From an uncultured delta proteobacterium (lineage in GTDB: Bacteria > Myxococcota_A > UBA9160 > JAFDET01), in assembly GCA_947259215.1 (NCBI GenBank), contig CAMYLJ010000022.1, forward strand, positions 1-64,000: a stretch of DNA of 64,000 bases, read 5' to 3'. Positions 42,652-54,128 of this stretch are shown here, one piece after another. Made by a program: the position numbers and the translations under genes. The first letter of the stretch is position 1. Each line of letters opens with the position of its first letter. The notes under the pieces were generated by a model. The model was not told the origin of the DNA and searched no databases. It worked only from the letters and a program-made list of their open reading frames with translations.

Positions 42652-42728
42652 GGGCGGTTCCTCCTGCTCGGCTTGCCGGAGAGCGTAGGTTTCCGCCACC
42701 CTCGATGCCCGGGAAGATGGAGGGTCAC

Positions 42729-43580
42729 ATGGGCAACCGGGTCTGCGTCCTGACGGGCGGCACCTCGGGCATCGGACGGGCTGCCGCCTTCGCGCTGGCC
42801 CGCGGGGGCTGGCGGCTCGCCCTCGTGTGCCGGAGCGCGGCCCGAGGCGAGGAGACCGCCGCCGAGATCGAGGCGAACACCGGCAACGGGGACGCGGAGC
42901 TGGTGCTGGCGGATCTCTCGCAGCAGGCTGAAATTCACAGGGCAGCGGCGGAGATCCGCGAGCGCTACCCCGCGATCCATCTGCTGCTGAACAACGCGGG
43001 CGTGGTGCACACGCGCTTCCAGACCACGGCCGACGGCCTCGAGTCCACCCTGGCGATCAACCACCTGGCCTACTTCCTGCTGACCGAGCTGCTGCGCGAG
43101 CGGCTCGTCGCCAGCGCGCCGGCCCGCATCGTGTCGGTGGCATCGGACGCGCATCGCTTCGCGCGGCTCGAGCTGGACGACCTGGAGTTCCGCCGCCGCG
43201 GCTACCGCGGCATGCGGGTCTACGGCACCTCGAAGCTGCTGAACATCCTGTGGAACCGCGAGCTGGCGCGCCGGCTCGAGGGAACCGGCGTCACCGCCAA
43301 CTGCGCCCACCCGGGCGGCGTGAACACCCGGCTCGGCGACGACAACGGACGCTTGCTGGCGCTGTTCGGCGGGCTGGTGAAACGCTTCCTGCGCACGCCG
43401 GAGAAGGGCGCCGAGACGCCGGTCTGGCTGGCCACCGCCAGCGAGCTGGAAGGCACGACGGGCGGCTACTTCGCCGACTGCCGGCCACGCCGCCCGAGCG
43501 ACGCCGCCTTGGACGACGAAACCGGGCGCCGGCTGTGGGCGATCAGCGAGCGGATGTGCGGGCTGACGACCGGGGCATAG
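42729..43580 (+). CDS. Short-chain dehydrogenase/reductase (retinol-dehydrogenase-like)
   Basis: 283 aa from ATG 42729, behind GGAGGG; ATG 42705 is an alternative with 8 more residues. CVLTGGTSGIGRAAAFALAR (TGxxxGIG), LLLNNAGVVHTRF (NNAG), IVSVASDAH and YGTSKLLNILWNRELA (YxxxK). WNRELARRLEGTGVTANCAH is like RDH11-14-type SDRs. Divergent from the glutamate dehydrogenase. Its 3' end overlaps the PEP-CTERM gene by 38 bases. Confidence 0.92.
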   Translation: MGNRVCVLTGGTSGIGRAAAFALARGGWRLALVCRSAARGEETAAEIEANTGNGDAELVLADLSQQAEIHRAAAEIRERYPAIHLLLNNAGVVHTRFQTTADGLESTLAINHLAYFLLTELLRERLVASAPARIVSVASDAHRFARLELDDLEFRRRGYRGMRVYGTSKLLNILWNRELARRLEGTGVTANCAHPGGVNTRLGDDNGRLLALFGGLVKRFLRTPEKGAETPVWLATASELEGTTGGYFADCRPRRPSDAALDDETGRRLWAISERMCGLTTGA

Positions 43581-44389
43581 CGTCCGGCCGCTCGCGCCCG
43601 ACCCAGAGCAGACCGAAGGGCCCCACTCCGAGCAGCAGCACGGTCGAGGGCTCCAGCAGCGACACGTTGTCCACGGCCAGGCCGGAGTCGAAGAGGTTGT
43701 CGTTCATGTCGAAGACCGCGATCCCGAGAGAGTAGGTCCCGGCGCCGGGCAGCACGCTACCCACCGCCGAGAGGTCGAACGTGCGCCAGCCGGTCTCGCT
43801 GTCGAAACCGGCGATGACCGGTACGCCGGCGATGCCCTCGAACTCGGTGTCGGCGTCCACCAGCAGGAAGATCTGACTGAAGGCGACCGGATCGTTCACG
43901 TCGTGCACGTGGACGATCGCGAAGTCCGGGAAGGCGTCGCCGTACTGGTTCACCGCGTCCGACTCGTCGCTCAGGAAGTTCCAGTCGAAGGTGATGTTGC
44001 CACCCTGGGTGGTGTCGAAGGTCTGCTCCATGCCGGCGCCCTCGGCGACGCTCACGCCCGCCGGCGTCACGCTGGCGAGCTCCGTGGCCGAGATGCCGAG
44101 CAGGCCGATCACGTCCGGGTCGGCCGCGACGGCGCCGGTGCCCACCTGGGTGCCCGCGGGCACGCTCCCGGGCGCGGACGTCAGGACGGAGTGGAACGAG
44201 CCGGTTGTCGAGGTCGTCTGGAGGCTGATGTCGTCGAAGACGGCGCTGTCGCCGATCAGGTTCCAGCTGGCGAAGCCGTTCTCGAAGCTGCCGTTCGCGA
44301 AGGGAGCGGCGCCTGCGTCCGTCGTCGCGCACAGGAGCAGGCCCATCGCGAAAAGCGCGATGCGCCCGAGTCCAGGGGGGGGTCTGCAT
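43543..44389 (-). pseudogene. PEP-CTERM sorted exported protein, signal peptide split at a C8 tract
   Basis: Readable from ATG 44346 as 267 aa. The body is a beta-rich domain (PFANGSFENGFASWNLIGDS, WNFLSDESDAVNQYGD, GWRTFDLSAVG). The C-terminus is LEPSTVLLLGVGPFGLLWVG-RER, the PEP-CTERM signal recognised by exosortase/archaeosortase-type enzymes. An earlier ATG at 44387-44389, with a GGAGACGGAG leader, opens a full signal peptide (MQT-PPGLGRIALFAMGLLLCA) only if the tract of eight G on the + strand (44375-44382) had seven. As written it is frameshifted. May be a one-base error, phase variation or decay; the short start could still give a weak signal. Confidence 0.65.
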
Positions 44390-44645
44390 CTCCGTCTCCA
44401 GGGGCCGCCGGTCGCCCGGAGGATCGGACTTTTGCAGGAGCGGGTTCAGGGATTTCGCGATGCCGATCACGGTTGCGGAGCGGTTGCGCATCCCCTTCCC
44501 GTGCGCGTGCGCGCAAGCACGGGCGCGAGTCACCACCCTTCCGCAGATTTTCCGCCCGCGCGCTGCGCGGCGGAGCGCCGGCGTTGCTGCGCGCGCGTTC
44601 CCGCACGAGACGCGTGCAGACAGCGTGCAGGTGGGCGGCGAGTGG

Positions 44646-46298
44646 CTAGTCGGCCAGCAGCGCCCGGGCGATCACCTTGAGCTCGAGGATCGGCTTCACG
44701 CCCTCGAAGATCGGCAGCACCTGCGCATCCACCACGTAGCGGCTGATCGGGTACTCCTCGGCGTAGCCCCAGCCGCCGTGCAGCAGCTGGCCTTCCTGGG
44801 TCACCACCACCGCCACGTCGCAGGCCAGGAGCTTCGCCTGGGCTGCGAGCGGCGCCGCCTTGCGCTCGTCGGCGTCCATGGCTTCGGCCGCCGCGTAGGT
44901 GATGGCCCGCGCGGGCGCGAGACGCACCGCCATCCGGCCGAGCATGTACTGGGTGAGCTGGAAGTCCGACAGCGGCTTCCCGAACTGGAGCCGGTCCACC
45001 ACGTACTCGGCGGTCTTGTCGAGAGCCGCCTGGGCCAGCCCGCAGGCGCGGCCGCCGGTCTGGAGTCGGCCGGCGGCGAAGCCGGCCATCTGGAGGTAGA
45101 AGCCGCGCCCCAGGCCTGCGTCGAGGCCCACCAGGTTCTCGGCCGGGACGAAGTAGTCCTCGAAGTTGAGGGTGAAGCTGTGCATGCCGCGGTAGCCGGG
45201 CGTGGCGTCCGCCTTGCCCACGATCCGCCCGCCGCCGGGCTGCTTCATCTCGAAGCTGTGGCCGTCGAAGGCGTCCTTCTCCACCACCAGGAGCGAGAGG
45301 CCCTTCTGTCCCTTGGCCAGATCCGGGTCGGTGCGCACCAGCACCGCCAGCACGTCGGCGCGACCGGCGAACGTGCACCAGGCCTTGGGGCCGTTGATGA
45401 TCCAGCCGTCGCGGCCGTCGAGCGTGCCGCGGTCGGCGCGGCACTTGACACTGGCCACGTCGCTTCCCACGTCGGGCTCGGTGACGCTGATCCCCACCAT
45501 CAGCTCGCCGGCAGCGATGCGCGGCAGCCAGGCCTGCTTCTGCTCGTCGGTCCCGCCCTGGATCAGCGCCTTGGTCAGGATCTCCGGACGCGTGATCAGC
45601 GAGCCGGCGGCCGCCAGCGACGCCCGCGACAGCTCCTCGGTGGTCAGGATCATGGCCTGGTTGCCCATCTCGAAGCCGCCGTACTCCTCGGGCACCGAGA
45701 GGCCGAAGTACCCGAGCTCGGCCATCTTGCGGATGAAGTCCTCGGGGATGAGCTCGTCGTGGCGGTGGATGCGCTCGGCGTGGGGCGCCACCTCGTTCTC
45801 GGCGAACTCGCGCACCGAGTCGCGCACCTGCTCGAGGGTCTCGTCCAGGGGCAGGTCGAAGCGGCCGCGCAGCTCCGCCATGCTCCGGCCCACGTGACGC
45901 AGCACGCTCTCGTGCCGTGCGCGGCGCAGGCGCTCGCGGATCTCGACCGGGAAGGCCTCGTGCCAGGCGTCGCCCAGGTCGAGGTCGTCGAGCGAAGGCT
46001 CCAGTCGATCGCGCAGGGACGCCACCAGCTCCGCCGTGGCGGCGGCCGTCACGGTCTCGAGCAGCGCATCGCCGCGGCCCTCGGCGCGCACGCGGCCGAC
46101 GTAGTCCACCAGCTCTCGGGCCGCGCACGCCTCGGTGGCCGCGTACGCCACGGCCTCCGCCAGCACCTGGTGGTCGTCGATGGTGCGGCCGCCTTGGGTG
46201 ATCTCCCGGGCTCGCGCCAGGGCGCGATCGACCAGGGTCTCGCCAGCGGCGAGCAGGCTCCGGGCGTCATCCAGCTGGGGGAGGGCGGTATCCGACAT
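44646..46298 (-). CDS. Acyl-CoA dehydrogenase with N-terminal extension
   Basis: 550 aa. The first about 150 residues are helical and precede the usual core: VREFAENEVAPHAERIHRHD, GYFGLSVPEEYGGFEMGNQA, GISVTEPDVGSDVASVKCRA (FAD/substrate), MHSFTLNFEDYFVPAENLVG and GGWGYAEEYPISRYVVDAQV with the catalytic Glu in LPIFEG. FAD-linked first step of beta-oxidation or a related dehydrogenation; electrons pass to ETF and the ETF-QO at 57276. The 256 bases between it and the PEP-CTERM start contain no gene. Confidence 0.92.
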   Translation of the reverse strand: MSDTALPQLDDARSLLAAGETLVDRALARAREITQGGRTIDDHQVLAEAVAYAATEACAARELVDYVGRVRAEGRGDALLETVTAAATAELVASLRDRLEPSLDDLDLGDAWHEAFPVEIRERLRRARHESVLRHVGRSMAELRGRFDLPLDETLEQVRDSVREFAENEVAPHAERIHRHDELIPEDFIRKMAELGYFGLSVPEEYGGFEMGNQAMILTTEELSRASLAAAGSLITRPEILTKALIQGGTDEQKQAWLPRIAAGELMVGISVTEPDVGSDVASVKCRADRGTLDGRDGWIINGPKAWCTFAGRADVLAVLVRTDPDLAKGQKGLSLLVVEKDAFDGHSFEMKQPGGGRIVGKADATPGYRGMHSFTLNFEDYFVPAENLVGLDAGLGRGFYLQMAGFAAGRLQTGGRACGLAQAALDKTAEYVVDRLQFGKPLSDFQLTQYMLGRMAVRLAPARAITYAAAEAMDADERKAAPLAAQAKLLACDVAVVVTQEGQLLHGGWGYAEEYPISRYVVDAQVLPIFEGVKPILELKVIARALLAD

Positions 46299-49502: not shown

Positions 49503-49724
49503 CTAGCGCGCGCTCCGGCGCAGGGCCGAGTCGAAGCGCCGGCGCCAGTCGGCCACCGCCTGCTGGCGCCCGATGACGTGGCTCGCCAGGGCGACCTCGA
49601 CCACCAGATTGGGAACGTCGATGGTGCAGCTCTCGACGGCCGGGTCCTGGAGCGCCCGGGAGGCGGCGGTCTCGAGGGCCGCGCGGCTGGCCAGGCGCAT
49701 GCGTTGACGGGGGGGGTTCGGCAT
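49503..49724 (-). CDS. Small protein of unknown function
   Basis: 73 aa. Arg/Ala-rich with SCTIDVPNLVVEVALASHVI in the middle and ends DSALRRSAR. No motif or membrane segment. Supported by ATG start and a neat fit between convergent gene and DUF971 gene. The 145 bases further upstream contain nothing else recognisable. Confidence 0.4.
   Translation of the reverse strand: MPNPPRQRMRLASRAALETAASRALQDPAVESCTIDVPNLVVEVALASHVIGRQQAVADWRRRFDSALRRSAR

Positions 49725-51364: not shown

Positions 51365-54128
<2,764 letters not shown>

Follow-up and report, generated by a model that had tools for sequence, protein, structure and literature searches.

The window analyzed here, a stretch of 64,000 nucleotides, carries on its minus strand an open reading frame (ORF) of 267 amino acids (43543–44346) that begins MGLLLCATTDAGA, is open throughout, has a strong coding score and shares its final 38 bases with a convergent ORF at 42705–43580. 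Residues 232–251 of this body ORF (43594–43653, minus strand) make up a PEP-CTERM-like tail, recognized by a sub-threshold Pfam match and by alignment with homologues. Upstream of the body, the minus strand reads, in order, CTGGAGACGGAG, an ATG at 44389, CAGA, CCCCCCCC (44382 to 44375) and TGGACTCGG. Both direct reading and the run listing bear out the eight-G tract that the initial annotation had placed at 44375–44382 of the plus strand: it is exactly eight C on the minus strand, flanked by A and T, and it lies four bases 3′ of the ATG, with CAGA in between. That ATG (44387–44389, minus strand) is probably the true start codon, judging from the sequence and from homologues that start upstream of the MGLLL position, and a Shine-Dalgarno-like GGAG (44396–44399, minus strand) stands six bases 5′ of it, which agrees with the good Shine-Dalgarno sequence claimed earlier.

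The two reading frames part at the C tract. As assembled, translation from ATG 44389 gives MQTPPWTRAHR, out of frame with the body; with a one-base shift after the tract, the same ATG joins GLGRIALFAMGLLLCATTDAGA / GLGRIALFAMGLLLCATTDAGAAPF and the product becomes MQTPPGLGRIALFAMGLLLCATTDAGA, a good signal peptide with a putative cleavage point after AGA. The probable signal peptide region (44308–44389, minus strand), as judged from translations and hydropathy, is thus divided between two frames in the assembly, and the length of the repeat tract decides in which frame the gene is read, as it does in a contingency locus. The open stretch of the body frame extends 63 bases 5′ of the tract; back to the preceding stop it contains no ATG, GTG or TTG other than the ATG at 44346, and no Shine-Dalgarno sequence precedes that codon in the sequence read.

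The leader of the window gene (44390–44430, minus strand) is only loosely similar to those of homologues L002, L003 and L004, which have common words (TCAGG..TTCT.AGG, and GATCCG before the start). Its look suggested a cobalamin-like riboswitch, a candidate that we rejected: Rfam gave nothing at gathering score across the window, and at 44340–44660 just two microRNA matches, both sub-threshold.

Where the signal peptide probably begins

We inspected the N-termini of seven homologues (L002–L007 and L071, setting aside L072 and the weaker matches L008–L010), taking as start codon in each the Met that, in the reader's choice, gives a signal peptide. In all seven the signal peptide begins before the MGLLL position (the N-terminus of L003, MRRLFVAALLGLLLGPASASAM, is an example of a full one), and none starts at MGLLL; homologues starting there were part of what the initial annotation had named as refuting its reading. 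One homologue, L006, begins MHRPPRQLGLTCAIALLLF (ATG CAC CGG CCC CCC CGC) and so carries an in-frame run of seven C where the window gene has its eight; in the other six there is no C run at that position, the frames are continuous and no slippery site is present. The hydropathy of the alternative products points the same way: the best 12-residue value is 1.32 for the short form from ATG 44346, with zero basic residues before it, and 2.66 for the shifted long form, with one basic residue before it, as against 2.20 to 2.72 and one or two basic residues in the seven homologues.

The start as written, ATG 44346, leaves a clipped and uncharged signal, and an N-terminal signal peptide of the window gene appears only with a frame shift at the tract. 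Because of the homologue N-termini and the hydropathy of the shifted form, the true start is very probably ATG 44389, with the break lying between the start and the signal core; the earlier proposals of a start here in the other phase and of a signal peptide that is complete once the frame is shifted both stand on this evidence. With seven homologues having longer N-termini, and one of them an in-frame C7, the assembly does contain a genuine frame break.

The protein and its relatives

The initial annotation had called the product a PEP-CTERM protein, a label that we keep in a qualified form: the Pfam tail score is 13.4 bits, below the cut-off of 20.7 (PF07589), and the window gene is not among the 18 PF07589 matches of the genome, but its tail carries the motif-like LLEPS. 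Since five of six aligned homologues have a PEP tail, the window protein probably works like a PEP-CTERM substrate despite its sub-threshold score. The search for an exosortase that had been suggested along with the label returned three matches above cut-off in the genome (PF09721).

The second half of the body has weak NCBIfam matches to PEP_NF038132 and to choice-of-anchor L (NF038133), both far below the curated cut-offs (21.7 vs 90 and 17.1 vs 27). The predicted structure is mostly beta (mean pLDDT 70.1), and the upper Foldseek ranks hold carbohydrate-binding modules among many low-scoring beta-sandwich proteins; rank 2 is TmCBM61, with a TM-score of 0.65 by target and 0.38 by query. The assignment of a beta-sandwich fold to the model is tentative because so many other beta-sandwich proteins match with low scores. 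The family occurs in eight other genomes, the same eight whether the order (79 genomes), the class (90) or the phylum (377) is considered, each total including the source genome. A search of genome contigs found one relative, the same protein as L002, and a search of viral contigs for relatives found none. Taken together, the gene would encode an ordinary exported surface protein of the PEP-CTERM type, probably with a beta-sandwich domain, that one of the genome's exosortases may sort.

Homopolymer runs and frame breaks across the draft genome

A C run after the start codon is commonplace in this GC-rich genome. Among 362 called gene segments on contigs C22, C1 and C8 (302 of which begin on a start codon), the density of sense-strand C runs of at least six bases over the first 30 bases is 12.9 times that in gene interiors (10 vs 22 runs), whereas G runs of at least six show no such skew (2 vs 48, ratio 1.2). 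A simpler gene call gives a C-run ratio of 12.5 in the source genome and of 6.5 in G048, a genome of the same order, the latter from three runs only. C5 or longer is found near the start in 26 of the 302 genes, and five genes (L055, L123, L125, L106 and the gene at 49724 of the window) have a C8 no more than 12 bases from a start picked by eye and stay in frame there, L123 being broken further downstream; in L096, ATG, CAA and C8 are followed by a stop after eight codons. Across the 18 other PEP-CTERM matches, the open frames hold a single run of at least seven, a C7 in L088 that precedes the first start codon, in a survey that leaves out the starts of three frames running off contig ends and that of L075, whose start is in another frame. 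With C runs near starts ordinary and the genes that carry them mostly intact, where the tract lies does not by itself argue for a switch. PMC3048395 and PMC2621210 have already described mononucleotide repeats as skewed towards gene termini; as in the gene-5′-end skew treated there, runs here are denser just after starts, but they are of sense-strand C rather than G, and most of the genes concerned are intact.

All 76 runs of exactly eight G or C in the genome (39 + 37) were scored for frame: 27 keep it, five show a frame change on the same strand, 37 have coding sequence on one side, six on neither, and one shows a strand change. In L036 and L038 the stop of the old frame precedes the run, and in L119 a stop comes just after it; we read these frame changes as gene boundaries. 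Among the judged in-gene runs, from which the 37 one-sided cases are excluded, the frame is kept in 27 of 29, the exceptions being L104 and the window tract. The draft is therefore not generally unreliable at such runs, and general homopolymer miscalling finds no support as an explanation. In 386,743 bases there are 17, 9 and 1 runs of exactly 7, 8 and 9, with none longer than 9, against Markov expectations of 25.8, 4.8 and 0.7 (order 3) or 38.3, 9.5 and 2.0 (order 2); there is no clear excess of exact-8 runs.

Frame breaks do occur elsewhere in the draft. In the window itself, the class II ribonucleotide reductase gene nrdJ (plus strand) has an exact 16-base tandem duplication at 53089–53121, and a break at 53106 splits PF02867 into model positions 1–413 and 403–523 in different frames; a second PF02867 gene sits on another contig. 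A frame-tracking scan of the same 386,743 bases, with boundary calls set by distance to a stop, flagged six changes, of which three were set aside as gene boundaries and two, a pair, as a low-complexity stretch, while nrdJ was kept as the one clear in-gene break; the scan is blind to the break in the window gene, where the 5′ piece is short. Breaks in three further genes come from inspecting translations by eye rather than from a systematic scan. In zwf (L123; G000:C31, near 9700, minus strand), which holds the genome's only G6PD_C match, the N-terminal part is in another frame than the C-terminal part. In L104 (G000:C17:149250-150650), which looks like a sugar dehydrogenase, the frame changes first at a C8 and then once more some 250 bases downstream. 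In L075 (G000:C15:20000-21500), a second PEP-CTERM gene whose body begins MKGLSVSVFLFLVLVLFVTPVVASG, the tail does not share the frame of the signal peptide and body, and the open frame has no run of six or more. The breaks in nrdJ, zwf, L104 and L075 could stem from faulty assembly or be true lesions; given them, an accidental indel at 44375 is unremarkable.

Origin of the break and known systems

The break is probably accidental: one base gained or lost within the C tract of an otherwise intact gene, either technically or through a recent, unselected slip. The real start would be ATG 44389, with the signal peptide codons running across the C tract, and the assembled tract length would put that start out of frame with the body. 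We infer the identity of the lesion (a single base, in the tract, with no evolved switch). A technical origin, in the assembly or the reads, has close to an even chance, and a real but unselected slip, recent in the sampled strain, is a lesser but still substantial possibility. All 267 codons of the body are open and its coding score is strong, so that any break is recent; a long decay of the gene was rejected because of the same open ORF. The full signal peptides of the seven homologues, the intact C7 of L006 and the breaks elsewhere in the draft count for an indel; the frame kept at 27 of the 29 judged exact-8 runs and the single clear in-gene break of the scan count against it, as does the fact that a genuine variable tract would look identical in a single assembly.

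A switch was the other half of the initial annotation's proposal, in which a homopolymer beside the start of a surface protein marked a classic position both for phase variation and for sequencing error. Slipped-strand mispairing at the C tract would then toggle the protein, with the assembly caught in the off state, and a C8 among the codons for the signal peptide of a surface protein whose body is open, together with the C7 of L006 at the same place, fits this; we nevertheless hold it to be very improbable. The other inspected homologues have no tract at that place, C runs after starts are commonplace in this genome, five genes carrying a C8 no further than 12 bases from a start keep frame there, the 18 other PEP-CTERM matches offer only the pre-start run of L088, and neither the number of exact-8 runs (9, with 4.8 or 9.5 expected) nor the longest run in the sample (9) speaks for a switch. 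Thus the switch is left unsupported, and error is favored together with chance slippage. The reading in which the eight-C sequence is correct and the protein is made by a +1 slip of prolyl-tRNA at CCC-U or by RNA polymerase slippage is about as improbable as the switch. ACC CCC CCC UGG does contain a CCC-U site, the +1 product has the right frame, and CC[C/U]-[C/U] is reported as slippery in E. coli (PMC4519876); but the rate given there is low, at most some 1% and for the second codon, whereas the window site is at codons 5 and 6, and in the other inspected homologues the site is absent and the frames are continuous. At such a rate translational slippage would provide a leaky off state at best. 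A combination of the two, in which C-tract slippage switches a PEP-CTERM surface protein in an environmental lineage and the off state leaks via prolyl-tRNA +1 slippage at CCC-U, is as unlikely as the switch itself. Least probable of all is a gene that starts at ATG 44346 (MGLLL) with a chance match upstream: the open body frame offers no other ATG, GTG or TTG upstream of this codon, but the codon lacks a Shine-Dalgarno sequence, its signal is short and uncharged, and no inspected homologue begins there. Against these alternatives we retain the accidental indel.

The locus serves mostly as a caution, in that a homopolymer beside the start of a surface protein invites a switch story in a genome where post-start C runs are ordinary and other indel breaks occur, some of them in housekeeping genes. 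If the tract lengths were truly mixed, the locus would be a homopolymer-switched PEP-CTERM protein. A literature search combining "PEP-CTERM" with "phase variation" returned no title reporting such a switch; in PMC3048395 the two terms stand apart from each other, and its named tracts, (G)8 and (C)10, belong to capsule-related genes.

Homopolymer contingency loci are known from Neisseria and Campylobacter. The window gene resembles loci of this type in that it encodes a surface protein and has a C/G tract close to its start, but its tract is only eight long, no length variation is seen in the single genome of the genus that was covered, and no set of such loci was found in that genome. The weak likeness to NF038132 and NF038133 is confined to the second half of the body, with both scores far below cut-off. 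The closer comparison is with the substrates of the PEP-CTERM/exosortase (EpsH) system (PF07589): the window protein differs from them in scoring below the Pfam cut-off and in that its start and body lie in different frames in the assembly, so that it would have a signal peptide like theirs only with a frame shift at the tract, but it has in common with them a C-terminal EPS motif, a hydrophobic stretch and a basic end, with exosortases in the same genome.
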